Notes under the pieces: generated by a model
Databases searched by the model: none
Told to the model about the DNA's origin: nothing
Seen by the model: only the letters and a program-made list of their open reading frames with translations
Position numbers and translations under genes: made by a program
DNA from: Streptomyces drozdowiczii
GTDB taxonomy: Bacteria > Actinomycetota > Actinomycetes > Streptomycetales > Streptomycetaceae
DNA: 64,000 nucleotides
NCBI RefSeq assembly: GCF_026167665.1
Contig: NZ_CP098740.1
Location: 2,232,001 to 2,296,000 of the forward strand
Direction: 5' to 3'
Part shown: positions 25,576 through 49,010 of the stretch, one piece after another
Layout of the letters: each line of letters opens with the position of its first letter
Position numbering within the stretch: the stretch's first letter is position 1

Positions 25576-28500
25576 TCAGGTGACCAGCGGTTCGAAGGGC
25601 CAGAACCGGGGAGGCGGGGTGTCCTCCGCCGGACCGGCGGTGAGCACCGCACGGCAGGCCACGGCCAGCGGGTGGCCGGGTCCCAGCACCGCGTCGGCCC
25701 GGTCGCTGTTCGTACGCCCCGGCAGACGCCGGTCCGCAGGGCGGACCAGGGCCGTGTTCAGCGCCCAGCCGATCGCCCAGGGGTGGTCCTCGCCGACGGC
25801 CCGCGCCATCCTGACGCACGCACGTTTGATGTCCTCCGCCCCCCGGTCCCGGTCACCGGCCGTCCAGCGCATCAGCCCCAGGTTCCCCCGCGTGCCGATG
25901 GTGTACGGGTGCTCGTCGCCCAGCATGCTGCGGTAGCCGGCCACCACCTGCTCGTGGAGTTCCAGGGCCTCGCGGGGGTCGCCCGCTTCCCGTCGCACGG
26001 AGGCGGTGCCGGTGCTGATGAGGAGGGTGAGCGGGGTGTACTCGCCCAGGGTGCGCAGGGCGTCCCGCCGGATGCGGTCCAGGTCCGCGAGCACGGCCGG
26101 GGCGCCCTTGATCGCGTACTGGCAGAGCGCCAGGTGGTACCGGCCGCGCAGGGTCTGCGGGGCGTTGCCCCCGAGCACCCGCAGATGGTGGTCGACCGTT
26201 TCCCGCAGCGCGTGTTCCGCCTCCCGGTACCGGCCGAGGAGCCGCAGGTCCATGGCGAGGTTGATCTCCGAGTACAGCGCCGCCGGCGCGTCCGGCGACA
26301 GCACCGCCCGCCGGGATTCGAGGCAGCGCTCGTCCAGGGCAAGCGCGTCCCCGTACCGCCCGAGGAGCCGCAGTGAGACGGCGAGGTTGTTCTCCGCGTT
26401 GAGGGTGCGCGGGTCCTCGGGGCCGAGGACCCGGCGGTCGCGCTCCAGGATCGACGCGGACAGCTCCGCCGCCTCCTGGTAACGGCCGAGCCCGCGCAGA
26501 TCGGCGGCGAGTCCGCCGGCGGCCCGCAGATGGTCCAGGTCCAGTTCACCGCGCTCGGCCGCCAGGAAGTCCGCGGTGGCGCGCTCGACCCGCTCGCTGT
26601 TCCGGTAGTCGCCGAGGGCCCGCAGCAGGTTGGCGTAATGGTGGCGCAGGGCCCAGGTCCGGGGGTCGGCGGCGCCGAGCGCGCTCTCCCAGGACCCCAT
26701 CGCCGCTTCGGCGAACCGGATGCCGCTGCCGTACTCGCCGGAGAGGTACATGTAGCGCAGGCAGTTGAGGACCAGTTGGTGGACCCGCGGGTCCGTGCTG
26801 TCCAGGACCTCCGCCCATTCGAGGTGGGTGGTGAGTGCGGCATACGCGGGCCAGTGGCGCGGGTCCGAGGGGTCGCCCGGATCGGCGGCGACGAGCGCCC
26901 GGGCGGCCCCCTCGGCGAGCGCCCACCGCTCGCGCTCGGGGATGTCCTTGCGGATGATCTGGTGGACCATGCGGTGGAGGTGGACGGACGTCTCGCCCTC
27001 GGCCGCCCCGGACTCCACGCGGATCACGGAGTACTGGCGCAGCCTACGGATCGCATCGCCCCACCGCACCGGTTCACCCATCAGACGGGCAAGCCCTTCG
27101 GGCAGCACCTCAGGAGGGGCGGCCCTGAGCAGCCGCACGGGTACGGCGCCGGGGGCGAAGAAACAGCAGAGGTGCAGCAGTTCGACGGCTTCCGGCGCGG
27201 TTTCGCGGAGCCGGTTCAGCAGGATCGACCAGGCGGTCCGGAAGGCGAGCGGGAAGTCGGCCGACACCCTGACGACGTCCTGGCCGGCGCCTTCGTCGAG
27301 CAGCCGGATGTACTCGTCGACCGGCATGGCGGCCTCGCTCAGCCAGCCCGCCGCCTGGTCGAGCAGGAGCGGGAGACCGTCCAGGGCCTCGGCCAGCCGG
27401 GCGGCGTCGTCCTTGGTGAGGCGGGGGGCTCGAAGGCCTACCAAGGCGACCGACTCCTGAATCGTGTATGGAGGGACTTCCAGGGCGGCGCAGCCGTGTT
27501 CGGTCCACTCGGGGTTACGGGAGGTGATCAGGACATGGCCTGGTCCGGAGGGCACGAGGTCCTGGATCTGCTCGGGCTCGTCCGCGCCGTCCAGGACGAG
27601 CAGCCACCGCGCGTGCGGCTCGCCGCCGCGCAGTGCGTCCCGTACGGCGCGCAGGCGTTCGCCGTACTCGGCACCGGTGGGGAGCCCCAGCTCAGGGGCC
27701 AGATCGGCGAGTTCCTGCCGGAAGGCGGCGCGCCGGTCGGCCTGCACCCACCACACCACGTCGTATGCGGAGCCGAAGCGGTGTGCGTACTCCGCCGCCA
27801 GCTGCGTCTTGCCGATGCCGGCCATGCCGTGCAGGACGACGCGGCCGTGCCGGTTCCCGGTGGCGCGCAGCATGTCGTACAAGGCCATCAGCGGCTCGAC
27901 GCGGCCGGTGAAGCGGGTGTTGCGGCGGGGGACGCCTCCCCATACCGCGGGCGGGTCATCGGGGAAGCGGGGCCCAGCCGAAGCGGACGCTTGCTCGGGC
28001 AGCGGATCGGTGGGCAGCCCCAGCCGGTCGAGGAGCCGCCGTTCCGCTTCCCGCGCACCGGCGTCGGTCAAGTCGGCCACACCGACCGCGGACGCGGCGT
28101 GGGGAAGCGCCGACGTCGTCACACATACGGTCGCGAACCAGTCCGGTCGAGGGGCGACTTCCGAGCGCAGGACCCGGTTCCACTCCTCGTGGCTGCGCGG
28201 GCCCCACTGGAAGAAGGAGTCGCTGAGCAGCAGTAGGACACGGCCCGGGGGTCGGGCCAGATCCCGCAGGGCCTCCTCCAGCGGCATTTCGGGCGGCGGG
28301 TCCCATCGCCGCTGAACCACCGGTACCCCGCGCCGCTCCAGACGGTCCCCGATCCACGCTGCCCAGGCCCGGTCGTATCCGGCGGAGCTGATGGTGACGC
28401 TCGCGTCGGGCCGCGGGGCGGGCGGGCCCGGGCGGGACGCGGTCACGCCCCGTACCACCGCTCCGGACCGGGCCGACTCCGTGATGGAGCAGGGCAGTTC

Positions 28501-28854
28501 GGCCTTGCGGACCGACGCGCCCCACTGGTTGAAGATGGTCAGCCGCAGCACTCCGGGACCGGCCGAGGGCCCCGCGGTGACGAGGAACGTCGCGGGTCCG
28601 TACGTACCGCCGAAGCGGTGCAGGACGAGGCCCGGGCCCTCGATGGCCTCGCAGACGAAGTGCGGCGCGCCTTCCAGGGCGACGCTGAACGTCACTTCCT
28701 CCTCCTCGTACGGCCAGGCGTCGCCGTCCGTGTCCCCGTGGGCGTCGAGCGGGCCGCGCAGGTCGACGCTGACGCACTGGACCAGGCCCGGTTCCACCTC
28801 GGGGAGCCAGCCCACGACGGGTTCGATCAGCAGCGGGCGTTCGGCGGGGGTCAT
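25576..28854 (-). CDS. TIR-STAND-TPR protein of the FxsT type, with extra N-terminal domain (arm A)
   Basis: A 1,092-residue multidomain regulator. Residues 1-145 form a beta-rich domain I cannot name (WPYEEEEVTFSVALEG, HRFGGTYGPATFLVTA, LRLTIFNQWG). Residues 152-280 are TIR-like (VTISSAGYDRAWAAWIGD, RVLLLLSDSFF). The STAND/NB-ARC module follows, with P-loop GMAGIGKTQ (343-351), Walker B WLLVLDGAD and sensor LITSRNPEW, then a winged helix and about ten TPR-like repeats (ENNLAVSLRLLGRYGDAL pattern). It matches FxsT proteins of FxSxx-COOH peptide loci. The ATG at 28854 overlaps the stop of the CHAT gene (ATGA). STAND proteins are normally off-state switches that oligomerise on ligand binding; the ligand here is unknown. 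Confidence 0.88.
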   Translation of the reverse strand: MTPAERPLLIEPVVGWLPEVEPGLVQCVSVDLRGPLDAHGDTDGDAWPYEEEEVTFSVALEGAPHFVCEAIEGPGLVLHRFGGTYGPATFLVTAGPSAGPGVLRLTIFNQWGASVRKAELPCSITESARSGAVVRGVTASRPGPPAPRPDASVTISSAGYDRAWAAWIGDRLERRGVPVVQRRWDPPPEMPLEEALRDLARPPGRVLLLLSDSFFQWGPRSHEEWNRVLRSEVAPRPDWFATVCVTTSALPHAASAVGVADLTDAGAREAERRLLDRLGLPTDPLPEQASASAGPRFPDDPPAVWGGVPRRNTRFTGRVEPLMALYDMLRATGNRHGRVVLHGMAGIGKTQLAAEYAHRFGSAYDVVWWVQADRRAAFRQELADLAPELGLPTGAEYGERLRAVRDALRGGEPHARWLLVLDGADEPEQIQDLVPSGPGHVLITSRNPEWTEHGCAALEVPPYTIQESVALVGLRAPRLTKDDAARLAEALDGLPLLLDQAAGWLSEAAMPVDEYIRLLDEGAGQDVVRVSADFPLAFRTAWSILLNRLRETAPEAVELLHLCCFFAPGAVPVRLLRAAPPEVLPEGLARLMGEPVRWGDAIRRLRQYSVIRVESGAAEGETSVHLHRMVHQIIRKDIPERERWALAEGAARALVAADPGDPSDPRHWPAYAALTTHLEWAEVLDSTDPRVHQLVLNCLRYMYLSGEYGSGIRFAEAAMGSWESALGAADPRTWALRHHYANLLRALGDYRNSERVERATADFLAAERGELDLDHLRAAGGLAADLRGLGRYQEAAELSASILERDRRVLGPEDPRTLNAENNLAVSLRLLGRYGDALALDERCLESRRAVLSPDAPAALYSEINLAMDLRLLGRYREAEHALRETVDHHLRVLGGNAPQTLRGRYHLALCQYAIKGAPAVLADLDRIRRDALRTLGEYTPLTLLISTGTASVRREAGDPREALELHEQVVAGYRSMLGDEHPYTIGTRGNLGLMRWTAGDRDRGAEDIKRACVRMARAVGEDHPWAIGWALNTALVRPADRRLPGRTNSDRADAVLGPGHPLAVACRAVLTAGPAEDTPPPRFWPFEPLVT

Positions 28855-30122
28855 GGCCGCCCACCCGCCTCGGTCGGTACGGGAACGCCCTGGTGGCGGG
28901 CGGTGAGGCGCAGGGTGCTGAGCGGATGCCCGTAGTACTGGAACATCAGGCTGTAGAGCAGGCGCAGCACGTTCTGCTGCCGGTCCCTGTCGAAGGTGCC
29001 GTCGTCCTTGACCATCATCGGGACCCCGCCGCCCGCGAGGAAGGTGTCGTAGACCTCCGCGCGGAAGGCCCGGAGCGCAGTGGCGACGGGCCGGCCGGGG
29101 GCCTCGGTCACGGTGTCCACGATGCGGCGGATCATCACCCGGGCCTCGGGGTCGCCGACCGCGCCCGCCGAGACGATGCAGCCGCCCGCGCCGTTGCGCA
29201 GGAAGATCTGGGTGAACCCGCGCAGATACTGCCTGCCGTCGCCCCCGTAGTCGAGGAAGCGCCCGGAGTGGCAGGCGTTGAGGCAGACCAGGGACGCGTC
29301 GCGGCCCAGGAGCCGCATGTCGAGGTCGTGGTAGTCGGCCCAGGTGCCGCCGCCCAGGGTGAGCTTGCTGAGTTCCTGGTCGAAGGTGCCGTGGCAGCCC
29401 ATGTACACCAGGCCGGTGCGCTGCTCGGCGAGATCGTCCAGATTGCTCAGGAAGCTCTCGATGCCGAAGTGCGGCCGGTGTTCGTACGGGTCGAAGAACT
29501 CCTGGTCGCGGGTCATGTCGGCGTGGAAGAAGCTGAGGACCCGGCCGTCGGGGGCGACCGCCCGGTCCGGGAAGTCGTCCAGCCAGCGCGCCACGTCCAC
29601 GAGCGCGCCGAGCGGCCCGCCGCGCAGCCCGGCGCCCGGCTCCGGGGGCAGGTCCAGGGCCTCCCAGGGCAGCTCGAAGCCGGTCTGGTCCAGGACGACG
29701 ATCTGAAGCGCTTCGCCGTGGACCCGCCGGCACCGGTTGATCCAGTCGGTCAGCCGGTGCTGGTACTTCGACCAGCGCCGGATGGACCGGAACAGCTCGG
29801 AGGGCGGGATGCCGCCCCGGCGCGCATGGCCGAATCCGATGTCCCCGGGCCGGAGCTGGTCGGGGCCCGTGGTGTACGGGAGCCGGTCCACGCCCGCGCA
29901 CCACGCCTCGATCCCGAACGCGTCGGGAGCGCCGGCCCCGGTGTGGTGGCGCGCGACCCGGATGCGGGCGTACGCGGTGTCCGGCGGGCGGGCCGCGTCC
30001 ACGGGCGCGGCGCCCAGGCCGCGTGGCTCCGGCGGGCCGGGTGCCGGGAGGCGTGGGCCGGGCAGCGCCTGGGCGGCGGAGGCGACCATGCCTCGGATCA
30101 GCCGGAGCCGCCCGTCACCCAT
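28851..30122 (-). CDS. CHAT-domain cysteine protease-like protein
   Basis: A 423-residue caspase-like protein. The CHAT dyad is intact: His244 in VYMGCHGTFD and Cys284 in LNACHSG, separated by the usual insert. Residues ~45-190 form the N-terminal half that CHAT proteins use to pack against the protease. CHAT enzymes are effectors in bacterial conflict systems, cutting target proteins once a partner STAND or TPR protein is activated, as in the gRAMP/TPR-CHAT complex. The ATG at 30122 is chosen over an extension to 30149 because it gives the usual short overlap with the upstream chelatase-like gene. The stop overlaps the FxsT start by 4 bp, so FxsT is its likely controller. Confidence 0.88.
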   Translation of the reverse strand: MGDGRLRLIRGMVASAAQALPGPRLPAPGPPEPRGLGAAPVDAARPPDTAYARIRVARHHTGAGAPDAFGIEAWCAGVDRLPYTTGPDQLRPGDIGFGHARRGGIPPSELFRSIRRWSKYQHRLTDWINRCRRVHGEALQIVVLDQTGFELPWEALDLPPEPGAGLRGGPLGALVDVARWLDDFPDRAVAPDGRVLSFFHADMTRDQEFFDPYEHRPHFGIESFLSNLDDLAEQRTGLVYMGCHGTFDQELSKLTLGGGTWADYHDLDMRLLGRDASLVCLNACHSGRFLDYGGDGRQYLRGFTQIFLRNGAGGCIVSAGAVGDPEARVMIRRIVDTVTEAPGRPVATALRAFRAEVYDTFLAGGGVPMMVKDDGTFDRDRQQNVLRLLYSLMFQYYGHPLSTLRLTARHQGVPVPTEAGGRP

Positions 30123-32067
30123 GGCGCGCCTCCCGGTCCGCCGCGGCAAGGGCGTCCTCGTCGCCGGTCCCTCCGACGAACCCGCCGCCCAGGGCCTCGG
30201 CCAGGGCCGCCGGGAGGCGGGTGTACGGGGGCCGGCCCGGGTCCACGACGACGCTGCGAAGGCGGCTGCGGCCCAGGGCGCGGATGTGCTCCGCCACGGC
30301 CACGGCGTCGTCGACGCCGGTACGGCACACCGGGCCGGGGACCGGCCGGCCGCTGCGGCTCACGGCGAGCGGGACATTGCCCCGGCCGTCGGTGGCGACG
30401 ACCAGGAGCGCTTCGACCAGTCCTGCGCTGTGGTGCCGGAACGCCCGCCGCAGCGCCTGCCCGGCCAGGTCGAGGCCGTGGGCGAGCGGGGTGGCCCGTC
30501 CGGGGTGCCGGGCCAGCGCGGCGGCGATGCGGGGGTCCCGGGTGGAGCGGGCGGTGAAGGCGCGGGCCCGGAGTTCGTCCGGCTCGCCGCCGGCGCCGAC
30601 CTCGACCACATGGACGGCGGCCCGGGTGACGTACGCCCAGCGCAGGAAGGGTTCGAGTGCCGGGTACCAGTCCCAGCCGCCCCGGCAGGTGTGGTCGAGG
30701 ACGACGGCCAGCATTCGTACGGGCTCCGGGGCCCGGAGATAGCCGCGCAGGTCCGCCGGGGCGATCACCAGCGGGCCTCCCGCACCGCCCCGGACGGCCC
30801 GGTACTTCGCGGCCTCCATCGCGGTGCGGACCGGGGCCAGATCCCACAGGTCGCGGGCGCGCCGCACCCCGATGACCGGCCCCCGGGAGGCCCGCGTCCC
30901 GGTATCGCGCCGGGCCGGCACCCGCAGCGTGCCCTCGCCGCGCCCCGGGCCCGCCACGTCCTCCGGATACGGGAGGTCGGCGGCCGGTGACGGTTCCTTG
31001 GGGGCCGCCGCCGGGCCGAGCGGCTGCGCCGATTCCGGCCCGTGCACGGGGACACCGGCTTCGGCCTCCTGCTCCGCGCCGCGCGGAGGCTCCGGGCGCG
31101 GCAGCGGACGGCCCGCACCCGGCGGCTCGGGCAGCTCCCGGTCCGGGGTGTGCTCCGGGCGCGCTTCGGGGCGGTGCGGGGTGCGGAGCCGGATGAGCCG
31201 CGCGGCGCGGTCGACGTGAGCGGGGGTGACCGGGAAGGGGGTGGCGGGGAAGGGGGTGGCGGTTGGGCGGTCCTGCGAGGCGCCCGTCGTGTCCGCCGAG
31301 TCCAGCCGGGCCAGGGCGCGGGCGATGCGGGCCAGGGCGAGCGCGCGCCGGTTGCCGCCGCCATCCGGCTCGTCCAAGAGGCCCAGCACGGCGGAGGCGG
31401 CCTCGTCGGTGAGCGTGACGGGGGGCCGGGGGGTGTCCGGGGCGAGGGCCGTCGCCCAGCCGGCGGGGAGCGGACCGAGCGGGTCGGGGCCGGGGCGCGG
31501 GCGCAGGGCCGGGGCGGCGAGGCGCAGGACGAAGCGGTCCAGGAGGTGCGGGGAGAGGAGCGCGGCGTCCTCGGACCGGCAGCACGCCAGCCACCGTGCG
31601 CGCGGCCGCCAGTGGTGGCGGACGCCTGAGTGCTCCAGGGCGGCGGTGTCCGCGCCGAGCAGTTGGACGGCGGCGCGCAGGCCGGGGACGCTGAGCCGGG
31701 CGAGATCGGGGACGACGACGAGCCGGGGGCCGCCGTCCGGCTCGGCCAGCGGCCCGGGGCCGAAGGTGAACCCGATGCCTTCCGGGCCCCGGCGCACTCG
31801 GGGGCGTATCCACAGGTCCTCGTCCACCGTGGCGGAGTCCAGCACGGTCCGGGGCGCGGGACGGCCCGGCGGATGCCCGTACGCACTGCCGAGCAGTCGC
31901 GCGAACGTCCGGGCGACGACGGGCAGGTGCTCGGGCGGGAGGTCGAAGAGCAGGACGCCGGCGAGCGAGGGCTCCAGCGCGGCGGAGACGAGCACGGTGA
32001 GCAGGCGCCGGAGGTCGCCGTCCGGCCCGTCCGCCTGGTCCCCTGTCGGTCGCACCGGTGTCCCCAT
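30115..32067 (-). CDS. Mg-chelatase subunit D-like protein (degenerate AAA + vWA)
   Basis: A 650-residue ChlD/BchD-like protein. Residues ~20-230 look like an inactive AAA module without a Walker A (VLLFDLPPEHLPVVARTFARLLG, RLVVVPDLARLSVPGL). A Pro-rich acidic linker (~265-390) follows, as in ChlD. The C-terminal ~240 residues are vWA-like, ending with VVATDGRGNVPL, very close to the ChlD vWA strand, but the MIDAS DxSxS is DHTCR, so metal binding is doubtful. It sits 1 bp after the ChlI-like gene. No porphyrin genes are nearby, so a role in chlorophyll-type chelation is unlikely; these pairs work as remodelling ATPases in conflict loci. Confidence 0.78.
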   Translation of the reverse strand: MGTPVRPTGDQADGPDGDLRRLLTVLVSAALEPSLAGVLLFDLPPEHLPVVARTFARLLGSAYGHPPGRPAPRTVLDSATVDEDLWIRPRVRRGPEGIGFTFGPGPLAEPDGGPRLVVVPDLARLSVPGLRAAVQLLGADTAALEHSGVRHHWRPRARWLACCRSEDAALLSPHLLDRFVLRLAAPALRPRPGPDPLGPLPAGWATALAPDTPRPPVTLTDEAASAVLGLLDEPDGGGNRRALALARIARALARLDSADTTGASQDRPTATPFPATPFPVTPAHVDRAARLIRLRTPHRPEARPEHTPDRELPEPPGAGRPLPRPEPPRGAEQEAEAGVPVHGPESAQPLGPAAAPKEPSPAADLPYPEDVAGPGRGEGTLRVPARRDTGTRASRGPVIGVRRARDLWDLAPVRTAMEAAKYRAVRGGAGGPLVIAPADLRGYLRAPEPVRMLAVVLDHTCRGGWDWYPALEPFLRWAYVTRAAVHVVEVGAGGEPDELRARAFTARSTRDPRIAAALARHPGRATPLAHGLDLAGQALRRAFRHHSAGLVEALLVVATDGRGNVPLAVSRSGRPVPGPVCRTGVDDAVAVAEHIRALGRSRLRSVVVDPGRPPYTRLPAALAEALGGGFVGGTGDEDALAAADREARHG

Positions 32068-32068
32068 G

Positions 32069-33016
32069 TCAGCCGAAGAGGTCGTCCAGCGCGGATTCCT
32101 CTTCCGGCCCCCAGACCGGCTCGGGACCGTGCACCGAATCGGGCCTGCGGTGGCGCAGGGCGAGCGGCACCACCCGGCGTACGTGCGACCGCTCCACGGA
32201 CCGGGCGCCGTCCCGTGCGGCGAGCGCGCGGGCCGCCTTGGCCACGAGCAGGTCGCCCCGCTGGCCAACGGCGCCGGTGCGGGCGGCGGCCTCGGCGCAG
32301 AGCCTGCTGATGTCCGGGTCCAACCGGACCTCGGAAAGCCGCTCACGGGCGGTGACCAGGCCGTCCCGCAGGCGCTTGTTGTCGTCCTCGGCCTCCCGTA
32401 ACCAGGCGGAGTCCGCGACGAGGCGTTCCTCCTCGAAGGCGAGCACGGTGGTGATCATCCGGTGCCGCTCCTCGATGTCCAGCTCGGCGGCGGTCACCAT
32501 CAGCCCGAAGCGGTCGAGCAGTTGGGCCCGCAGGCTGCCCTCCTCCGGGTTCATCGTGCCGACGAGCCCGAACGAGACATGGGCCTCAGTGTCTATGCCC
32601 TCCCGCTGCACGGACAGGACGCCGGTGGAGACGACATCGAGGATGATGTTGACGATGTGGTCGTCCAGGAGGTTGACCTCGTCGATGTAGAGCAGCCCCT
32701 TCCGGTGCGCCTCCTCCAGGAGGCCGGGCTGCCGTCGCGCCTCCCCGTGCATCAGGGCGTCCAGCTCCCAGCCGCCGAGCACCCGGTCGTCGGTCGCGTT
32801 GATCGGCAGGGTGACGGGCAGGCAGCCGCCGGTCATCAGCGCGAAGGCCCGGACGACGGTGGACTTGGCGGTGCCACGCCGGCCGGCGATGAGGACGCCG
32901 CCGATGGCCGGCGCGATGAAGTTCAGCTCCAGGGCCAGCTTCAGCTCGTCCTGCCCGACGACGCGGCTGTACGGGAGGATCGGGGCCGGTAACGCCTCGG
33001 CCGCCGCCTCGCTCAC
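32069..33016 (-). CDS. Mg-chelatase subunit I-like AAA+ ATPase
   Basis: A 315-residue ChlI/BchI-type ATPase. Walker A is GRRGTAKST (45-53), Walker B is LLYIDEVNLLDDH, and the ChlI-specific segments VVGQDELKLALELN, RVLGGWELDALMHGE and GTMNPEEGSLRAQLLDRF are all present, including the arginine finger region. It should form the active ring that drives the D-like partner encoded 1 bp downstream. The GTG at 33016 overlaps the stop of the small Trypco1-like gene by 4 bp. In this context it is the ATPase of a MoxR/vWA-like pair, not a magnesium chelatase. Confidence 0.88.
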   Translation of the reverse strand: MSEAAAEALPAPILPYSRVVGQDELKLALELNFIAPAIGGVLIAGRRGTAKSTVVRAFALMTGGCLPVTLPINATDDRVLGGWELDALMHGEARRQPGLLEEAHRKGLLYIDEVNLLDDHIVNIILDVVSTGVLSVQREGIDTEAHVSFGLVGTMNPEEGSLRAQLLDRFGLMVTAAELDIEERHRMITTVLAFEEERLVADSAWLREAEDDNKRLRDGLVTARERLSEVRLDPDISRLCAEAAARTGAVGQRGDLLVAKAARALAARDGARSVERSHVRRVVPLALRHRRPDSVHGPEPVWGPEEESALDDLFG

Positions 33017-33420
33017 GAGGGCGCCACCACCGTGGTCACCCGCTCCTCCCGTCCCGGCTGCCAGCGGAAGGTGACCTGGATCTGCGCCTCCGCCCCGGCC
33101 TTGACCACGGCGGCCATCCCCGCCTCGAAGGTGATGCCGACCTGGAGTTCGACCTCGTCGGGCCGCAGCCCGTCCCCGAGGTCGCCCAGCCTGCGCATCG
33201 CCTGGGAGGCGCAGCGCCGGGCGAGGTCGAGCCCGTCGCCGTAGAGGTCCTGCGCCGCCGCGAGCGCTCGGCGGCCGGCGTTGTCCCGGGTCTCCTCGCT
33301 GTCGTACAGGGAGTCCGCGTCGGTGGCGGGCACCCCGGTGGCGGCGAACGCGTCCGCGTCCACGACCACCGGGATGGGGGCGTCCTCGCCCGGTGCGGGT
33401 GGTCCCACTACTACCGCCAT
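33013..33420 (-). CDS. Small trypsin-co-occurring (Trypco1/CU044_2847-like) protein, arm A
   Basis: A 135-residue protein. The last half carries the family pattern DEVELQVGITFEAGMAAVV followed by AEAQIQVTFRW, which also appears in the protein encoded at 46304-46840. The N-terminus (IPVVVDADAFAATG) differs. The ATG at 33420 has a G-rich ribosome-binding site; an upstream GTG/ATG extension to 33456 is less likely. These small proteins accompany trypsin-like and MoxR/vWA conflict genes; their biochemical role is unknown. It heads the ChlI-ChlD-CHAT-FxsT string, which suggests it is the sensor or adaptor of that arm. Confidence 0.7.
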   Translation of the reverse strand: MAVVVGPPAPGEDAPIPVVVDADAFAATGVPATDADSLYDSEETRDNAGRRALAAAQDLYGDGLDLARRCASQAMRRLGDLGDGLRPDEVELQVGITFEAGMAAVVKAGAEAQIQVTFRWQPGREERVTTVVAPS

Positions 33421-33489
33421 TGCTGCCCCCAGTCGCCCAACTGCCTTACTGCGCAAGGTTACTGATAGGGCATCACTGACGCCATGCCG

Positions 33490-39283: not shown

Positions 39284-39329
39284 ACCACGGGCCGGAATCG
39301 AGCGTCGGCCCCACCGGCACGGCCTTGGC

Positions 39330-39518
39330 TCAGAACGCGTTGGTGAACCCCCAGAGCATCTCCTTGGGCTGCTCCGCCCGCCCCCGCAGATCCGCCACCA
39401 CCTCGGACAGCACCGGGTGGTCCATCGTCCGCAGGGCCGCCAGGTCCAGGCCCAGCAGGTCCGGCAGTGCACCCGCGCCGGCCGCGCCCGTTCCCTCGTA
39501 CCGTGTCGACTCGCTCAT
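39330..39518 (-). CDS. fxsA: FxSxx-COOH-type precursor peptide with an FTNAF C-terminus
   Basis: A 62-residue peptide. The ATG at 39518 follows GGGGAGG by about 6 bp; a longer frame upstream lacks coding character. The leader is acidic, with the family helix PDLLGLDLAALRTMDHPVL followed by SEVVADLRGRA. The C-terminus is PKEMLWGFTNAF: Phe58-Thr59-Asn60-Ala61-Phe62. In FxSxx-COOH precursors the FxsB enzyme crosslinks Phe and Ser; here Asn stands at the Ser position, a residue known as an acceptor in other three-residue cyclophane peptides (WxN type). It is directly upstream of the maturase gene on the same strand. A second aromatic, Trp56, could also be modified. Confidence 0.85.
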   Translation of the reverse strand: MSESTRYEGTGAAGAGALPDLLGLDLAALRTMDHPVLSEVVADLRGRAEQPKEMLWGFTNAF

Positions 39519-39669
39519 CACGCCTCCCCGTACCGCAGCACCGGGCCGGCCGGTGACCCGCTCGCCGTTGAGCGCGTCCCGCCGGTCCCGCATCCCTGAC
39601 CTGCCGTGTCGCCTGCTGCCTTACGCGCGTGCCGGGGCCCCGGCGCGCTCGCCGTCGGGCGCGCCGCTC

Positions 39670-42600
39670 TCACCGCTCCAGCTCCGCCAGCCGCTCGGCG
39701 GTCGCCTCACCCGCCGCGCCGCCGTTGTCCGGCAGTTTGCGCCACTCCTGGCGGGCCGCCCGGTACGCGTCGCGCGCGGCCCGGGGGCGGCCTGCCCTCT
39801 CGTACGTCATACCCCGCCAGTGGTTGGCTGTAGCGGCCAACTCCACTGCTTCCTGGAGATGTTGTGGACTTTCCTGCTCCGTTTGCGCCTCGCCGGCCGC
39901 GTCGGCGGCCGAGCGGAACGCCTCCGCCGCCTCGTCGCGGCGGGCCGGGCGGTCGAGGACGCCGGCCGCCTGGAGGAGGGCCCGGCCCAGCTCCAGCCAG
40001 CAGCGGGCGGCGGTGAGCGGGGCGGTGGCCTCCTCGGCCGCCAGCTTGAAGAGGTACTCGGCCTCCCGCAGGTCGACCCGGTCCGCCGTGGCGCGGTGGC
40101 GCAGCATCAGGGCCCGGCCCAGCATCAGCAGGCGCTCGGACTGCTGGGCGCCGCCGGCCGGCATCTCGGAGCGGCAGTCGCGCAGCACCCGGACCGCCGC
40201 GCCGATGTGCGCGCCGCCGTCCGGGAGTTCGGCGCGGCGCAGCAGCGTGGCGCCCCATTCGGCGAGCAGGTCGGTGTAGGCGCGGGAGTCGCGGGGGATG
40301 CCCCGGGCCGCGCGGGCGAACCACTCGGTGGCGGCGACGAGTTCGGCCGGGTCGCCGGTGTGTTCGTAGCGGGCGACCCGGACGCGTCCGGCCCGGGTCT
40401 GGAGCTGGGCGCGCTGGCGCTGGTCGCGTACGGTCTCCAGCGCCTGGGCGGTGAGGGTGGCGGCCTCCTCCGGCTCGGCGCCCGAGGCGAGCAGCGCGTC
40501 GACCAGGTCGAGGACGATGCGGACCTCGGTGCCCATGGTCTGCCCCGCGCTCTGGGCGAACGCGGTGCGCAGCGACCGGGCCGACTGGCGGGCGTACTCG
40601 CGGGACTGTTCGCCGTCCTGGGTGGCGCGGGCCAGCTTCAGGAGGGTGCGGCCGTGCTGGAGGGGCAGGACGGCGGGGCGGTTCTCCTGGTCGGGCCAGG
40701 CGTCGGCGAACGCCTCCAGCATCCCGCAGGCGCTCTGGAGCAGGGCCGTGTCGCCGTCGAGCCGCCACTGCGCCTCCAGGGCCCGGACCCGCTCCAGGGT
40801 GAGGCGCAGCGCCTCGCCGGGCTCAAGTCCGGGGCTGGCGCAGGCCGCGGTGTATTCGCGGTCGGCGCGCCGCAGCAGCTCCAGCGCGCCGCGCCGGTCG
40901 CCGCGCCTGCGCCGGTCGTCGGCGGCCGCGTGGAGGACCTTGGCGAGCACCGCGCGTTCCCGGACGGCGCCGGGGCGGGCGGCGGCCCGTTCGGCGGCGC
41001 GTTCGGCCTCTTCGAGGAGGTCGGCACCGCCCTGGACCTCCCACAGGCGCAGCACGCAGCGCGCGTACTCCGCCCAGAGTTCGGTGTCGTCGGCGGGGGC
41101 CGGGGTGTGCTCGGCGGCGCCCCTGAGCAGCTGTACGGCGTCGATCAGGCGCTGCACCATCTTGTCGGTCTCGAAGTGGCGCACGAGTTCCCGCGCGCGG
41201 CGCACGGCGAGGCCGGCGGCCTGGGGGTTGCCGGGCGTCTTGGGCTCCCGGGTGACGAATCGTGGCGGTACGGGCATGAATCGCTCCAGTACGCGGGCTG
41301 CGACTTCGGCAAAGGCGTGGGGGACGCGCGGACCCCCGGGTCTCTCGTTCCCCCCGTTCCCCTCGTTCTCCTCACTGTCGTCGGTTTCCTCGGCCGCCCG
41401 GGCGGCGGGGTCCGTGGCGGGGACCGGCCAGGGGGTGCCGTGCGCGGCGTCGCGGATGGTGCCGTCGCCGAGCTGGGCGTAGGCCAGGGCCGGGAAGTTG
41501 GGCCCGCCCTTGCCGAACCGCTGCTCTATGTACTGCGAACAGTGCTTGAGCACGAGCAGGGCCTCGTCGCGGCCGAGGGGCCCGAGCAGTGCTTCCTGGA
41601 CGTCGGGCTCGAAGACGTACCACTGTCCGCGTCCGGTGCCGCCCTCCTGCCGCTTGAGGAGTCCGCTCAGCAGGACCTCGGCGAGCTCGGAGGGTCCCGA
41701 GTGGGGCAGCATCGTGCGCTGGACGAGTTGCATGACGGGGAGGTAGAGGGGGGCCGCGGCGAGGTAGACGGCGAGCTGTCCGGCCGCCGGGGAGGCCGTC
41801 GAGCGGAACCGGCTGACCAGGTGCAGCGAGGACAGCGCGTCGCCCGGGCGGCGGGCCGGGGCCGCGGGCTGGTCGGCCCGGACCCAGCCGACCGCGCCCG
41901 GCACCGAGGCCGCGCCGGTGCCGGAGAGCAGCCGGGCCCAGGCGGCGAGCGCGTCCGCGACCGGCGGCAGCACGGGGACGGCGAGGGCGCCGGGGTGGGC
42001 GGGGCCCGTCCCGGCGTCGCCGGTGACCTTGAGGAGGGCGGCCCCGGCCGGGCCCTCGCCGCGGGTGAGCGAGCCGAAGGTGACCGGCAGCCGGGTCCGG
42101 TTCCACATGCGCTGCGGCAGCGGCTGGAGCACGGCGACGGGGGCGAGCCGGGCGAGCTGGTGCAGCAGCCGGTGGGCGTGTCCGGTGCGCCAGAGGGGGC
42201 CCGCGCAGTCGCTGACCACGACGGTCACCCGGCGGCCGGTGGGGTCGCTGAGCCGGTCCGCCGAGTGCAGCGGGGCGGCGGTGGGGTCGGGGCTGCGGCT
42301 GACCGTGCAGCCGCCGTCGGGACCGGGGTGGAGGTAGCGCATCTGGACATCCCGGAACGCGCCGATCCGGGCGAAGATCTGCTGGAGTTCCTCGAACAGC
42401 CGGTCCCAGACCAGCATCGAGGAGGAGGCGTCCATCACGCACTGCACGACGGCGTCGCCGCGCCGGACGCCCCGGAAGACGGGCATGACCACGCCCCCGG
42501 CGCGGGCGCTGCGTTCGGCGGTCGCCGACTCGTCCAGGACCTGGCGCAAGGGCGCGGAGACCGGGCGGTAGCGCTGCAACGGGCGGAGCGCGCGGGTCAG

Positions 42601-43077
42601 TTCGAGGGCGGCGGGCAGGACGGGCGCGGCCGGTACGCCGAGGGGCAGCACGGCGGCGTGGGCGTCCGCGCCGGGCCGGATGTCCTCCGGGTCCGGTGGA
42701 GCGTCCGGTGAGCCGGGCCGGGTGCGGCCGGGGACGGGGTGCAGGGAGATCCGCTCGCCGTCGCCCGGTGCGGGCGTCTCCTCGCGCCGGGCGGCCCGGT
42801 CCTCGTCCGGGGTGCGGGCGTCCGGGGTGGCGGTGCGGCGGGGGTCGGGGCGGTCTTCGGAGGGGCGGTGGCCGGGGCGCGCGGGGTCCGGGCCGGTCCC
42901 CTCCCCGGGCGCGGCGGCGCGGCGGGTCCACCGGGCCAGCCAGAGGGCGTCGCAGAGCTGTTCGACGTCCGGGTCGAGCCCGGCGCCGCGCAGCCGCGCG
43001 ACCAGCTCGGGCAGTAAGCCGCCGTCGTGGGTTTCCGGGGCACCGCCGCCGTCGGTCCTGTCCGCCGCACCGGACAT
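39670..43077 (-). CDS. SAV_2336-type protein: vWA domain with helical repeats
   Basis: A 1,135-residue protein. The N-terminus has the SAV_2336 motif (LVARLRGAGLDPDVEQLCDALWLARW, split by the window of residues 26-50). After a disordered linker a vWA-like domain has an intact MIDAS, Asp216-x-Ser218-x-Ser220 (VMDASSSM), and VTVVVSDCAGPLW. The last ~550 residues are TPR-like helical repeats. It is encoded 7 bp downstream of the MoxR ATPase gene and is its vWA partner. Proteins of this type belong to the vWA-MoxR-VMAP ternary conflict systems described by Aravind and colleagues. The MIDAS probably binds a partner or substrate that the ATPase remodels. Confidence 0.8.
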   Translation of the reverse strand: MSGAADRTDGGGAPETHDGGLLPELVARLRGAGLDPDVEQLCDALWLARWTRRAAAPGEGTGPDPARPGHRPSEDRPDPRRTATPDARTPDEDRAARREETPAPGDGERISLHPVPGRTRPGSPDAPPDPEDIRPGADAHAAVLPLGVPAAPVLPAALELTRALRPLQRYRPVSAPLRQVLDESATAERSARAGGVVMPVFRGVRRGDAVVQCVMDASSSMLVWDRLFEELQQIFARIGAFRDVQMRYLHPGPDGGCTVSRSPDPTAAPLHSADRLSDPTGRRVTVVVSDCAGPLWRTGHAHRLLHQLARLAPVAVLQPLPQRMWNRTRLPVTFGSLTRGEGPAGAALLKVTGDAGTGPAHPGALAVPVLPPVADALAAWARLLSGTGAASVPGAVGWVRADQPAAPARRPGDALSSLHLVSRFRSTASPAAGQLAVYLAAAPLYLPVMQLVQRTMLPHSGPSELAEVLLSGLLKRQEGGTGRGQWYVFEPDVQEALLGPLGRDEALLVLKHCSQYIEQRFGKGGPNFPALAYAQLGDGTIRDAAHGTPWPVPATDPAARAAEETDDSEENEGNGGNERPGGPRVPHAFAEVAARVLERFMPVPPRFVTREPKTPGNPQAAGLAVRRARELVRHFETDKMVQRLIDAVQLLRGAAEHTPAPADDTELWAEYARCVLRLWEVQGGADLLEEAERAAERAAARPGAVRERAVLAKVLHAAADDRRRRGDRRGALELLRRADREYTAACASPGLEPGEALRLTLERVRALEAQWRLDGDTALLQSACGMLEAFADAWPDQENRPAVLPLQHGRTLLKLARATQDGEQSREYARQSARSLRTAFAQSAGQTMGTEVRIVLDLVDALLASGAEPEEAATLTAQALETVRDQRQRAQLQTRAGRVRVARYEHTGDPAELVAATEWFARAARGIPRDSRAYTDLLAEWGATLLRRAELPDGGAHIGAAVRVLRDCRSEMPAGGAQQSERLLMLGRALMLRHRATADRVDLREAEYLFKLAAEEATAPLTAARCWLELGRALLQAAGVLDRPARRDEAAEAFRSAADAAGEAQTEQESPQHLQEAVELAATANHWRGMTYERAGRPRAARDAYRAARQEWRKLPDNGGAAGEATAERLAELER

Positions 43078-43084: not shown

Positions 43085-44110
43085 TCACCTCGGCCGGTCG
43101 AGTCGCTGGATGAGCAGGTCGGCGAGCCGGTCGCGGCCCGCCGGTGACGCGGCGTGCGTGAGGTATATGGCGTTCAGCAGCTGGTCGGTGGCGAGGAGTT
43201 CGGTGCGGGACCGTTCCAGGAAGTGGGCGATCAGGTCGTCGCTGGCGCGGGCCGCCTCCTCGCCGAGGTGGGCCTTGACGAAGGAGGCGAGGCGCTTGTG
43301 GTCGGGGCGGCCGAGTTCCAGGTGGATGCAGCGGCGCATCAGCGGGGCCGGGAAGTCCCGTTCGCCGTTGCTGGTGAGCACGACGAAGGGGAAGGCCCGG
43401 CACTGCACCCGGCCGCCCTTGATGCGGACCTTGTTGCCGTCGTGGTCGAGCACGTCCGCCTCGCCGTCGGGCAGCCGGTCCGCGATCCGTTCCAGCTCGG
43501 GGATGGCGAACTCGCCCTCCTCCAGGACGTTCAGCAGGTCGTTGGGCAGGTCGATGTCGCTCTTGTCCAGCTCGTCGATGAGCAGGACGCGCGGCCGGTC
43601 CGAGGGCAGCAGCGCGGTGCCGAGCGGCCCGAGCCGGATGTAACTGCCCACGCTCTGCGCCGCGTCGGCCCCGGCACCGCCGCCGGCCGCCGCGTGCGAG
43701 GCGATCTGGACGTCCTGGAGCCTGGCGATGGCGTCGTAGTGGTAGAGGCCGTCCTGGAGGGTGGTGCGGCTGACCACGGGCCAGCGCAGCACCTTGCCGA
43801 GTTCGAGCTCGCGCGCCACGGAGTGGGCCAGGGTGCTCTTGCCGGCGCCCGGGTCCCCGGTGACGAGCAGGGGACGCCGCAGGTACAGCGCGGCGTTGAT
43901 CATCTCCAGTTCCTCGGCGCCGGGCCGGTGCTCCTCGGCGACGCGCCCGGGGATGCCGAGCCGCCGGTCGGCGGACTCGCCGCCGTCCGCCCCGTCGGCC
44001 CCGCGGCCTCCGGTGAAGTCGCGCCAGGGCGGCGGGGGCGGCAGCTGGGGCACCTCGTCGTGCGGTTCGCCGATGCCCCGGTAGATGAGCCACTCGCTCG
44101 GTTCACTCAT
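43085..44110 (-). CDS. MoxR-family AAA+ ATPase
   Basis: A 341-residue AAA+ protein. Walker A is GDPGAGKST (85-93), Walker B is LLIDELDKSDIDLP, followed by the sensor segment VLTSNGERDFP and the arginine region APLMRRCIHLE. MoxR ATPases pair with vWA proteins to remodel or insert metals into clients; the partner is the SAV_2336-type protein encoded immediately downstream. It begins a new transcription unit or follows the trypsin gene after a 130-bp gap. The first 75 residues are disordered and acidic. Confidence 0.92.
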   Translation of the reverse strand: MSEPSEWLIYRGIGEPHDEVPQLPPPPPWRDFTGGRGADGADGGESADRRLGIPGRVAEEHRPGAEELEMINAALYLRRPLLVTGDPGAGKSTLAHSVARELELGKVLRWPVVSRTTLQDGLYHYDAIARLQDVQIASHAAAGGGAGADAAQSVGSYIRLGPLGTALLPSDRPRVLLIDELDKSDIDLPNDLLNVLEEGEFAIPELERIADRLPDGEADVLDHDGNKVRIKGGRVQCRAFPFVVLTSNGERDFPAPLMRRCIHLELGRPDHKRLASFVKAHLGEEAARASDDLIAHFLERSRTELLATDQLLNAIYLTHAASPAGRDRLADLLIQRLDRPR

Positions 44111-44240: not shown

Positions 44241-46307
44241 TCACGGCGCCTCCAGGAAGTCGGAACCCGGCAGCGGTCGGTGCGGATCGTCGTAGTAGAG
44301 GGCCGCGCCGGCGGACCAGTACGTCTCCGTCCGCCCCGCGCTCACCCCGCGTCTCAGTTCATGGATCTTCCACGGCAGCCGGTCGTGGGTGCGGGTGTCC
44401 GACACCGCCTCGGCCACGCGCCGGTGGAACTCCTTGCAGACCGTGTCGCCCTCCGCCGTGCGCCGCTGGAGCAGCGCCACGCCGAAGCCGCTGTCGAGCA
44501 GCCGCACCACCCCGGCCGTCACCTCGGGGTCCGGCAGGCTGCCGTAGCGGCACAGGACGGGCACGGTCCCGTGGGCCAGGGTGCGCAGCCGCGCCGACTC
44601 CGGTACACGTACCCGCAATTCGTCCTCGCAGTCGACCACCTCGGCCCGGATCGCGGCCGCGAGCCCCGCGTCCCACCGGGCGGGCCGCTCCTCGGCCGCC
44701 CCCTGGTACGGGCTGCGCAGCACCACCGGGCGTACGGCTCCGAGCCGCGTCCCGGACGGCGGCAGCACCCAGTCGTCCACCGGGAGCCCGAAGAGCGCGG
44801 GCGCGACGACGACCTGGAGCATGGCGGGGCTGTCCGGTTCGTCGCACCGCCGGAACGCCTCGGTCAGCGCGGCGGCGAGCCGGTCCGGCACGGTGCCGAG
44901 CGGCACGCCGCGGCTGTCCTCGTCCACGGGCTCGGCCTCCGCGGCCCGGCGGTCCACGGCGACCCGCCAGTCGTACTGGTCGCGGGCCCAGCCCTGGAGG
45001 TCCACATGGAGCACGACGCAGTCGCGTTCGCCGTAGCGGACGGGATCGCCCGCCGGGGCGCGGGCGGCCCGCTGGCGGTTCTGTTCCAGGCGGAGCCGGA
45101 TCGCGGCCCACTCCACGTCGAGCTGCCGCCGAAGGTCGCGGGGGAGTTCGGTGTCGGCGATGCGCTTGACCCAGCCCCAGAGCGCCTTGGCGTTGCGCAC
45201 CGAGAGCTGGCCGCAGGGGCGGTCCGCCGCGAGGACGCCCATGCAGTAGCGGACGATCAGCTCGAACCGGGCCTCGCGGTCGCGGGCGCGGGCGTCGTAG
45301 AGCGCGCCGAGTCCGTCGCGCCAGCCGCGCGGGGCCGGTCGGTGGTCGCGGGCGTACACCCCGGGCAGCCGGTCGAGCAGCGTCAGCAGCGACCGGGTGC
45401 TGGCCGGGGGCGACAGCTCCGCGAGGCGGCCGAGGAGTTCGGCGCGCAGCTTGGGGCCGAGGATGCCGCCGGGCGGGTCGGGCAGGTCGCTCTGCGCGTC
45501 GGTCCAGGTCCGCTCGGTGCCGGCGGAGCTGGTGTGCCGGTCGGCGTGGTAGCGGTCGTGGGCGTGGAAGACGGACTGGTATATGTCGTCGGTCTCGGTC
45601 TCGACGGGCCCGGCCGGCACCTCCAGGGTGCGCAGCCGCTCGACGCCGACGGCGGTGCCGCCCTGGTGGCCGTTGATCTGCGACTTGATGACGCCGACGA
45701 CCTCGCCCCGGGCCAGGTCGACCAGGGGGCCGCCGGACATGCCGAGCTCCACCCAGTCGCCGTCGATCCTGACGACCTGTTCGGCGTCGCCCGATCCCCC
45801 GTACGAGCCCTTGACGACGCAGACGCCGCTGCGGTTCCGGAGCCCGCCGCCCTGGACGGGCGCCCAGCCGACGCAGCGCACCTCGCGGCTGCGGAGCAGG
45901 GCCTCGGACCGCTCGGTGACGTACACGCAGGGGTGCTCGACGGGGCGCTGGAGCTGGATCAGCGCGAGGTCGGGGGCCGGCCAGCCGCCCGGGCCGGGGG
46001 GCCGGGTGCCGGGCAGGGCGGCGACGACACGGCCCGGCACCTCGGTCAGTTCCGCGCTGTAGCGGTCCTCCTTGAACCACACGCCCACCATGCCCCCCTC
46101 CCCCCGCGTCGCCACATGCGCACAGGTGAGGACCCAGCTGGGTGCGACGAAGAATCCGCTGCCCAGGAAGTCCCCTTCCGGCCCGTCCTGGGCATACCCG
46201 GACGGCGGGCGATGGATGCGTACGGTGGCGTCCTGGACGAGGTCCATGAGGGCGGCCTGGGCGGGACCGAGGGCCCCCTCTGCGCCCCCCTGTTCCCCGA
46301 AGGTCAT
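44241..46307 (-). CDS. Trypsin-like serine protease fused to a VMAP-like C-terminal domain
   Basis: A 688-residue protein. The protease domain (~25-215) has a complete triad: His64 (VLTCAHVA), Asp113 (PDLALIQL) and Ser191 (GMSGGP). There is no signal peptide, so it acts inside the cell. The rest is helical then alpha/beta and resembles the C-terminal domains of vWA-MoxR-associated proteins (VVLHVDLQGWARDQYDW, ALLQRRTAEGDTVCKEF, WKIHELRRGVSAG). In such ternary systems the VMAP protein links the MoxR/vWA pair to an effector; here the effector protease is in the same chain. It overlaps the upstream Trypco1 gene by 4 bp. An active protease in the cytoplasm must be kept silent until a trigger. Confidence 0.82.
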   Translation of the reverse strand: MTFGEQGGAEGALGPAQAALMDLVQDATVRIHRPPSGYAQDGPEGDFLGSGFFVAPSWVLTCAHVATRGEGGMVGVWFKEDRYSAELTEVPGRVVAALPGTRPPGPGGWPAPDLALIQLQRPVEHPCVYVTERSEALLRSREVRCVGWAPVQGGGLRNRSGVCVVKGSYGGSGDAEQVVRIDGDWVELGMSGGPLVDLARGEVVGVIKSQINGHQGGTAVGVERLRTLEVPAGPVETETDDIYQSVFHAHDRYHADRHTSSAGTERTWTDAQSDLPDPPGGILGPKLRAELLGRLAELSPPASTRSLLTLLDRLPGVYARDHRPAPRGWRDGLGALYDARARDREARFELIVRYCMGVLAADRPCGQLSVRNAKALWGWVKRIADTELPRDLRRQLDVEWAAIRLRLEQNRQRAARAPAGDPVRYGERDCVVLHVDLQGWARDQYDWRVAVDRRAAEAEPVDEDSRGVPLGTVPDRLAAALTEAFRRCDEPDSPAMLQVVVAPALFGLPVDDWVLPPSGTRLGAVRPVVLRSPYQGAAEERPARWDAGLAAAIRAEVVDCEDELRVRVPESARLRTLAHGTVPVLCRYGSLPDPEVTAGVVRLLDSGFGVALLQRRTAEGDTVCKEFHRRVAEAVSDTRTHDRLPWKIHELRRGVSAGRTETYWSAGAALYYDDPHRPLPGSDFLEAP

Positions 46308-46840
46308 GCCCCGCCGCCGTCGGGGTCGTCCGCACCGCCGGGGTGTGCCGGTGCGCCGGGGGGTGCCCCGGCGGGCGGGAAGCCGGGAGGTGCACCGGCG
46401 CCCGGCGGCGTGGCGGGGGGCGCGAAGGGCGGGGCCGTCTGCGCCGGTACGGGGGCGGGCGGGGGCGCGTCGATGGGCGGCCCGCCGCCGTTCCAGGTCA
46501 GCGTGACCGTGATGGCGCCCTTGGCCTCGCCGTCCGCGAGCAGCCCGACGACCTTCCCGGCCTTGGCGGTCAGCTCGATGCCGAACTCGACGCTCACCTC
46601 GTCCGGCCGCACCGCGCGCAACGGCACGGCGAGCGAGCGCGCCACGCCGGTCACCACGGAGTGCAGGCTCTCGACCCGGGCCTGCACCTGGTCCGCGATG
46701 TCCCCGAACCCGGTGTCCGTATAGGTCGGACCGCCCCCGGGCGCCGGCCCGGTCAGCTCCTCGGCCCCGGAGATCCTGGCCCAGACCGGTGTGCCGTCCG
46801 GCAGCTCAATGCGCGTAATACGGGACCCACTGTCACCCAT
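46304..46840 (-). CDS. Trypsin-co-occurring protein (CU044_2847/Trypco1 family), arm B
   Basis: A 178-residue protein. Order: N-terminal strands (ITRIELPDGTPVWARI), a helical middle, the family core DEVSVEFGIELTAKAGKVV and AKGAITVTLTW, and a Pro/Gly-rich tail (~130-178). The CU044_2847 family is found beside trypsin-like proteases, here overlapping by 4 bp. It is the first gene of the minus-strand cluster, and its promoter should lie in the 113-bp divergent gap to 46954. The function is unknown; an adaptor or inhibitor of the neighbouring protease is plausible. Confidence 0.82.
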   Translation of the reverse strand: MGDSGSRITRIELPDGTPVWARISGAEELTGPAPGGGPTYTDTGFGDIADQVQARVESLHSVVTGVARSLAVPLRAVRPDEVSVEFGIELTAKAGKVVGLLADGEAKGAITVTLTWNGGGPPIDAPPPAPVPAQTAPPFAPPATPPGAGAPPGFPPAGAPPGAPAHPGGADDPDGGGA

Positions 46841-49009: not shown

Positions 49010-49010
49010 C

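Follow-up and report, generated by a model that had tools for sequence, protein, structure and literature searches.

We analysed a 64,000-nucleotide stretch of the Streptomyces drozdowiczii genome (assembly GCF_026167665.1, contig NZ_CP098740.1, positions 2,232,001 to 2,296,000; hereafter the window), and within it a run of thirteen minus-strand genes transcribed from position 46840 to 25576. The genome is 7.39 Mb in a single contig. Open reading frames (ORFs) and profile searches of the window gave the order of transcription as Trypco1-b, trypsin-VMAP-C, MoxR, vWA, FxsA, FxsB, HExxH, STAND-B, Trypco1-a, ChlI, ChlD/vWA, CHAT and STAND-A (Table 1). A first-pass annotation had listed thirteen same-strand genes with these domains at 25576-46840, and the profile searches bore this out. 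It had also described most of the genes as overlapping by 4 bp; with the starts chosen here, only four of the twelve junctions do so (STAND-A/CHAT, ChlI/Trypco1-a, HExxH/FxsB and VMAP/Trypco1-b), the CHAT/ChlD junction overlaps by 8 bp, and the remaining seven are gaps of 1 to 163 bp. Two long listed ORFs (36558-39320 and 25576-29904) lie over real genes that use other frames, and the likely starts are 37949 and 28854. No terminator-like site was seen inside the run in a simple consensus scan, so that co-transcription is possible. Pfam and profile scans found no transporter, export or leader-peptidase domain among the thirteen genes, and PADLOC, run on the locus proteins, gave weak AAA and protease matches only and called no system.

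The genes from Trypco1-b to STAND-B form the peptide/VMAP arm (module 1). The VMAP, MoxR and vWA genes follow one another from 46307 to 39670 on the minus strand, the order that VMAP ternary systems require, and their catalytic motifs are conserved. The N-terminal MoxR motifs WxhapG and PsWRxa were matched as WLIYRG and PPWRDF, each in 58/58 sequences; in the trypsin-VMAP protein GxSGGP was present in 55/55 relatives and the His motif in 54/55 (window included); and the vWA protein carried DxSxS, a motif like a metal ion-dependent adhesion site (MIDAS), in 57 of 65. Apart from its N-terminal NF041121 match, the vWA protein gave a weak F420_cofE match and no Pfam family at E<=0.01, so that TPRs were not recognised in it. 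A separate TIR-AP-ATPase-TPR gene, STAND-B, lies 3' of the peptide genes, as FxSxx-type VMAP systems have. Both TIR-NB-ARC-TPR proteins of the locus score above the cut-off of NF040586, entitled 'FxSxx-COOH system TPR protein'. As described in the main text of Kaur et al. (2020; PMC7159879), FxSxx-type VMAP ternary systems combine a peptide with radical SAM-SPASM and zincin-like genes and have a TIR-AP-ATPase-TPR gene of its own downstream, and peptide processing is found in about 20% of actinobacterial VMAP systems. The first-pass annotation had read all thirteen genes as a single system; for the peptide, VMAP and STAND-B part this holds, as it is the published system, and the CHAT arm proved separable from it.

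Concerning the peptide enzymes, CxxxCxxC of FxsB was kept in 81/81 sequences; the nearest FxsB relatives are nearly all Streptomyces records. The closest solved chain in a sequence search of the PDB was 9gm3, 'ChlB radical SAM domain' (E 1.2e-73). We take this enzyme group to be one that makes cyclophane crosslinks. The HExxH motif was kept in 76/76 sequences of the adjoining enzyme, whose closest solved chains were 22nu (E 1.3e-24) and ChlH 8s5f (E 6.2e-6); given TIGR04267 and the available text of PMC12636437, this gene is better read as a predicted 2-oxoglutarate-dependent peptide beta-hydroxylase than as a protease. The FxsA precursor has an internal ATG at 39518 as a possible start. A literal F-x-S-x-x C-terminus is not present in the window FxsA, which ends in FTNAF; the third residue from the end was Asn in 60, Ser in 18 and Arg in 1 of 79 precursors (window included, with three of the 79 aligned rows shifted by one residue). 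Since this WGFxN/S tail varies little and there is no exporter among the thirteen genes, it suggests an internal ligand, not a secreted antibiotic. As a side observation, 221 of 392 Streptomyces genomes had FxsB above the cut-off in a profile search, and the best-scoring FxsB among the matches listed lay mostly in ORFs of about 690-1010 residues, as expected of radical SAM (rSAM)-HExxH fusions.

The five genes from Trypco1-a to STAND-A form the CHAT arm (module 2, 25576-33456). The Walker A and B motifs of ChlI were kept in 23/23 sequences, and the ChlD motifs DHTC and TDGRGN in 22/22. Searched against the PDB, the ChlD profile found MCM6 first (E 2.5e-5) and BchI 1g8p second (E 5.4e-5). CHAT His244 and Cys284, presumably the catalytic pair, were the same in all 11 aligned rows, and identity to the window protein was 25-49% for ten of these; the simple motifs HG[TGS] and NAC were present in 20/21 and 21/21. 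Pfam matched no VMAP-C within 25576-33456 and no iSTAND, iSTAND2 or TERNS3 component in the CHAT cassette, although whether models exist for all of these was left unchecked. Searching plasmids with ChlD yielded two matches, both partial; one belongs to a Nonomuraea record of chromosome size.

STAND-A differs from STAND-B at its N-terminus, where about 125 residues form a domain that we call the Ig-like adaptor. AlphaFold2 modelled it as an eight-strand beta sandwich (predicted local distance difference test, pLDDT, 85.7). The adaptor matched no Pfam family at E<=1, and a fold search of the PDB gave weak matches, mostly to beta-sandwich proteins; because these were only weak, we do not name its family. 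A protein search with the adaptor returned 100 proteins, ten of which (P0167-P0176) were not of the TIR-STAND-TPR type and carried it on glycogen debranching, phosphoesterase, restriction-type, NACHT-HEAT, AAA-TPR and VMAP-C proteins. There was one adaptor match (E<=1e-6) in each of 17 matching genomes, and no second copy on a core component.

We also searched wider genome samples with the adaptor alone. In the class its matches came from 2 of 246 genomes, namely the two in which ChlD was found, and in another family (f17) from 15 of 327. ChlI, ChlD and CHAT, in this order, directly precede the adaptor in 15/15 of these f17 genomes and in one further genome (G207). Conversely, a ChlD search of 220 f17 genomes found seven, of which six were adaptor genomes and the seventh has a contig that ends inside CHAT. 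Trypco1 was present in 9 of the 16 adaptor stretches outside Streptomyces, and FxsB in none of the 16 (13-20 kb each). According to Pfam, the effectors on the 16 adaptor genes vary: two genes carry alpha-amylase/CBM48, two trypsin and three VMAP-C (NYN is also present in two of the three, and EAD2 as well in one of those two). TPRs stand by themselves in two, four encode long TPR proteins (three with AAA_16), one encodes a TIR-STAND-TPR (its TIR and NB-ARC matches below the Pfam cut-offs), and in two no effector was recognised. In G894 the effector was an FxSxx_TPR-family STAND (542 bits), and there was no FxsB match over about 56 kb (three stretches). The f17 locus L164 (7679-15574) reads Trypco1-ChlI-ChlD-CHAT-(adaptor-VMAP-C)-MoxR-vWA with no FxsB or FxsA match, so that both window arms are directly linked in this locus without FxsB. 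In G207 (L133, 1-20000) we saw a weak double-GTPase match near ChlI-ChlD-CHAT-adaptor, and the effector half of its 404-residue adaptor gene was not recognised. As ChlI-ChlD-CHAT precede the adaptor in 15/15, without FxsB and with changing effectors, we regard the CHAT arm as a module of its own.

Presence of each arm was scored in the nearest 80 of 297 confirmed FxsB loci, a biased sample, with all window genes mapped and the VMAP arm counted as present on a VMAP or MoxR match. Nineteen of the 80 lacked enough sequence on at least one side, and from the other 61 we set aside L011 (assembly gap inside an arm) and L049 (arm beyond reach behind an insertion); L051, whose contig ends after ChlI, is also not among the 59 loci with both sides readable. 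Of these 59, 40 had the VMAP arm only, 14 both arms, 4 the CHAT arm only and 1 neither. STAND-A followed CHAT in 18 of 20 loci, the other two ending there. The chromosomal site is largely constant, with kgd, DUF4097 or PadR seen in 56/59; of the rest, L019 and L033 had only p5 and L075 none of these flank genes. In 37 of 41 cassette-less loci kgd begins less than 1 kb from STAND-B, and in the cassette-bearing L127, L128, L129, L130 and L132 it comes after STAND-A. Three of the four cassette-less exceptions had something else in between, kgd lying 3.7 kb off in L088 and not being seen within 5 kb in L033 and L084; the fourth, L082, has no STAND-B. An orphan Trypco1-a remains between fxsT (STAND-B) and kgd in L078 and L081.

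On the FxsB tree, for which L011 and L049 were still counted, the minimum number of state changes was 16 for the CHAT arm (ChlI marker) and 6 for the VMAP arm. Of 18 splits, the cassette and core trees had 12 in common, where permutation gave at most 2; this favours an old joint residence of cassette and core with repeated loss; plain linkage alone could give the same. Loss of the cassette by recombination between STAND-A and STAND-B was considered and rejected, as the single STAND was STAND-B throughout, with no chimera, in the 17 cassette-less loci compared. The CHAT arm was commoner where the VMAP arm was missing (Fisher p 0.18 with 61 loci, 0.06 with one dropped and 0.027 with 59), and three of the four CHAT-only loci group with L050 and L039 in the core tree. 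Because the loci are related and two rows were dropped, we claim nothing from this test. Two loci are unusual in other ways. L082 (Streptomyces shenzhenensis, 9450-12670) appears eroded, with FxsA, FxsB, HExxH and a vWA fragment kept, kgd next, and STAND-B and both arms not found; L049 (2772-10004) has an apparent insertion of about 7 kb with several ORFs between FxsA and FxsB.

In a separate sample, ChlD was found in 7 of 150 Streptomyces genomes. FxsB adjoins the CHAT cassette in all six of the genus loci with enough contig (in the seventh, G272, the contig ends inside ChlD), and the VMAP core was present in two of the six (the window and G356) and not seen in four. This sample overlaps the FxsB loci, G258 being the same strain as L050 and G312 as L016. 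The first-pass annotation had held that the single system would fail if the two arms were found apart in most relatives. This is in part what we observed, as both arms occur around FxsB in 14/59 near-relative loci and in 2 of the 6 CHAT-bearing genus loci, and FxsB in 0/16 stretches outside Streptomyces. In G310 (L175) a second FxsA-FxsB pair, with weak FxsA scores, lies between STAND-B and Trypco1-a. Its region 1994-7300 has FxsA tails FYEDGPYQL and of a repeated YHEDSP type, which suggests a multi-core precursor, and gave no HExxH match.

The two STANDs were also compared. Their identity is 56-79% within the first 700 aligned residues (TIR, NB-ARC onward) and 27-41% beyond them, at the TPR end. 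Being alike at the output half and unlike at the TPR end, they point to one output with two inputs. In a quick tree, STAND-B formed one clade except in G310.

Table 1. Genes and features of the locus and its borders (window coordinates)
Feature	Position	Strand	Evidence
Trypco1-b, VMAP arm gene 1	46304..46840	-	Pfam Trypco1 69.8 bits (cut-off 24.6); NF041216 67.7
Trypsin-like peptidase + VMAP-C fusion	44241..46307	-	VMAP-C 115.4 (cut-off 27), Trypsin_2 55.5 bits
VMAP-type MoxR AAA+ ATPase	43085..44110	-	AAA_5 30.9 bits; motifs WLIYRG, PPWRDF
vWA protein, SAV_2336 N-terminal family (SAV_2336_NTERM)	39670..43077	-	NF041121 485 bits (cut-off 200); MIDAS-like DASSS
FxsA precursor	39330..39593	-	TIGR04268 43.2 bits (cut-off 28); C-terminus EMLWGFTNAF
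FxsB radical SAM/SPASM cyclophane maturase	37946..39166	-	TIGR04269 441 bits (cut-off 370)
HExxH enzyme	36558..37949	-	TIGR04267 163 bits (cut-off 40); motif HELQH
STAND-B (named fxsT here), TIR-NB-ARC-TPR	33490..36477	-	NF040586 886 bits (cut-off 300); TIR_2, NB-ARC, TPR
Trypco1-a, CHAT arm gene 1	33013..33456	-	Trypco1 53.2 bits (cut-off 24.6); NF041216 55.5; alignment
ChlI-like AAA+ ATPase, chelatase clade	32069..33016	-	TIGR02442 285 (cut-off 779), TIGR02030 232 (cut-off 467)
ChlD-like: degenerate AAA, proline/acid-rich linker, C-terminal vWA-like part	30115..32067	-	TIGR02442 28.5, TIGR02031 27.3 bits, weak; alignments
CHAT peptidase, His244 + Cys284	28851..30122	-	CHAT 41.5 bits (cut-off 24)
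STAND-A: adaptor domain-TIR-NB-ARC-TPR	25576..28854	-	NF040586 765 bits (cut-off 300)
N-terminal Ig-like adaptor of STAND-A, motif LHRFGGTYGP	28475..28854	-	AlphaFold2 pLDDT 85.7; marks CHAT module
Flank: kgd-type 2-oxoglutarate dehydrogenase, one site border	21627..25505	+	Pfam
Flank, other site border: hypothetical p5 (-), DUF4097 (+), PadR regulator (+)	47170..49970		Pfam

Among the neighbours, kgd is convergent with the locus, and its substrate, 2-oxoglutarate, is also the co-substrate of the predicted hydroxylase; this is possibly a coincidence and we give it no weight. Further away, at 2723-2815 on the plus strand, the window has an Rfam NLPC-P60 cis-regulatory RNA (65.1 bits, gathering score 53.7).

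Taken together, these results suggest that the locus probably consists of two tandem conflict modules that share a chromosomal site, the second with an effector adaptor of its own. Co-occurrence of the arms in 14/59 and 2/6 loci, and the FxsB-free module elsewhere, indicate that this is not one obligate system and that in some genomes the CHAT arm can do without the peptide. The CHAT arm seems to be a hitherto undescribed conflict module of the chelatase-type AAA+/vWA/CHAT kind, which some Streptomyces carry attached to the peptide locus. Cross-talk between the arms is plausible because of the 6/6 adjacency to FxsB in Streptomyces, the 12 of 18 splits shared by the trees, the second FxsA-FxsB pair of G310 and the fusion in L164.

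A working scheme can be proposed from the domains, with activities and order of events that we infer. FxsB and the HExxH enzyme would mature the C-terminus of FxsA, and the peptide may then serve as a ligand or co-signal of STAND-B. In module 1, MoxR and vWA would set the threshold for the trypsin-VMAP protease, with the TIR-STAND fxsT as output. In module 2, ChlI (AAA+) and ChlD (vWA) would be an NTP-driven switch, CHAT the peptidase and Trypco1 its partner, and the Ig-like adaptor would couple switch and peptidase to an exchangeable effector, here a second fxsT-family TIR-STAND. The CHAT and TIR mechanisms used in this scheme are general background. The vWA and TPR parts may capture a signal of infection or damage; by analogy with the ternary systems of the PMC7159879 main text, ATPase action of ChlI-ChlD on a vWA-held ligand would then unleash CHAT. 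CHAT would cleave or license the adaptor-bearing effector, and the TIR domain may deplete NAD or make a nucleotide signal, so that the hypha stops growing or dies.

Several points weigh against the reading of two tandem conflict modules and the scheme built on it. Module 2 is rare, with ChlD in 2/246 genomes of the class and in few of the Streptomyces genomes counted above, and simple linkage would also produce co-inheritance at a single site. A role in defence is suggested by analogy with the families involved, and that CHAT would cleave at the adaptor is something we only infer. The TIR motif that we take to be the predicted catalytic Glu was present in 68 of 75 STAND-B proteins, and seven may lack it. 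A sequence search of the PDB gave no meaningful relative for the TIR piece or for the VMAP and CHAT proteins, and the CHAT structure model (pLDDT 45) was too poor to use. In the quick tree STAND-A was not one clade, and STAND-A and STAND-B of G310 grouped together; the history is thus either more than one duplication or blurred by conversion.

Other explanations were weighed on the same evidence. The locus might be one integrated system: both arms would use the modified peptide as their alarm, ligand or substrate, with CHAT and trypsin working on it in a single cascade. This would fit the finding that all six Streptomyces CHAT arms with context adjoin FxsB, as does the second FxsA-FxsB pair of G310 the cassette; it would also fit the agreement of arm and core trees, the little-varying core C-terminus in 79 rows (as expected of an internal ligand) and the lack of a transporter domain in the thirteen genes. 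However, both arms are together in just 14/59 loci, and in 16/16 stretches elsewhere the module has no FxsB match, including the roughly 56 kb around the FxSxx_TPR-family STAND of G894, and so we consider a single cascade unlikely.

If the peptide locus were a cluster for a ribosomally synthesized and post-translationally modified peptide (RiPP) natural product, with the surrounding genes as its regulators, genuine FxsA, FxsB and HExxH genes would be expected, and they are there. But there is no export or leader-peptidase domain among the thirteen genes, most of which are of the conflict-signalling type, and the C-terminal core is little varied across the genus, unlike that of a diversifying antibiotic, which makes this improbable. 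We consider it more improbable still that ChlI-ChlD is a metal-insertion ATPase pair with CHAT merely adjacent. Many ChlD relatives are named 'magnesium chelatase' in the sources and chelatase models do match; the ChlD relative L152 scores 70.5 bits. Yet all these scores, in the window and in L152, fall far under the Mg/Co chelatase equivalog cut-offs (Table 1; 28.5 against 779 bits for ChlD), no ChlH/CobN is present among the thirteen genes, and the order ChlI-ChlD-CHAT-adaptor is kept in 16/16 stretches outside Streptomyces.

Beyond the tandem-module reading, we tentatively raise a broader possibility, doubtful as it stands: that Trypco1-ChlI-ChlD-CHAT-adaptor is a conflict class separate in origin from the CoxD-CoxE-derived MoxR-vWA systems. 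It would be a chelatase-type machine controlling a caspase-like protease, with interchangeable effectors joined through the Ig-like adaptor, and in Streptomyces it would be wired to a cyclophane peptide, with two TIR-STANDs of different sensors reading the same peptide. The described ternary conflict systems that we found use a MoxR-vWA switch, and a chelatase-type switch with CHAT and an adaptor would extend them by a further branch, whose origin may be separate. The LHRFGGTYGP domain offers a handle for finding new effectors. The purpose of FxSxx peptides also becomes testable, as there are strains that have either arm (VMAP or CHAT) by itself, both arms together, or neither.

Databases name single genes of the module as CHAT protein, magnesium chelatase or FxSxx TPR protein. 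We did not find the ChlI-ChlD-CHAT-adaptor unit described in the literature searched, which did not extend to supplements and subscription papers: the main text of PMC7159879 does not mention ChlI or CHAT, the main text of PMC8195603 mentions neither chelatase nor CHAT, and the text of PMC10907252 mentions neither chelatase nor ChlI. With the FxSxx-type VMAP system, as given in the main text of PMC7159879, the window shares the Trypsin-VMAP/MoxR/vWA order, Trypco1, FxsA, rSAM-SPASM, HExxH and the downstream TIR-AP-ATPase-TPR; the window adds the five-gene CHAT arm, and the core peptide is mostly FxNxx. Kaur et al. proposed there that the HExxH/zincin protein is a peptide-releasing protease, whereas we read it as a 2-oxoglutarate hydroxylase. 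The fused rSAM/HExxH protein ChlBH (Morishita et al. 2024, as reported in the available text of PMC12636437) combines the same two enzyme families for cyclophane formation and beta-hydroxylation; in the window, in contrast, these are separate genes in a conflict-gene context.

The MoxR-vWA systems iSTAND, FtsH and beta-propeller (2020), iSTAND2 and TERNS3 (main text of PMC8195603) share with the CHAT module an AAA+/vWA switch, a system-specific third component, exchangeable effectors and a peptidase signal. The CHAT module differs from them in its chelatase-type ChlI-ChlD, its CHAT third component 3' of the vWA gene and its beta-sandwich adaptor. VMAP-C, the third component in VMAP ternary systems, follows the adaptor in 3/16 relatives of the CHAT module. 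Effector-associated domains (EADs; main text of PMC7159879) are, like the adaptor, small non-catalytic domains on varied effectors of a conflict core; however, the published ones have alpha-helical or alpha+beta folds and occur a second time on the core protein, and the adaptor is predicted to be all-beta with one copy per genome. The nearest published hint to the CHAT module is in the available text of PMC10907252, which also proposes signalling in the direction opposite to the ternary scheme of Kaur et al. (2020). There, a Thiohalocapsa CHAT-TIR protein, the target of a diversity-generating element, lies near Trypco2. CHAT, TIR and Trypco are thus together in one predicted conflict locus, as in the window, with CHAT and TIR in a single protein, unlike the separate genes of S. 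drozdowiczii.

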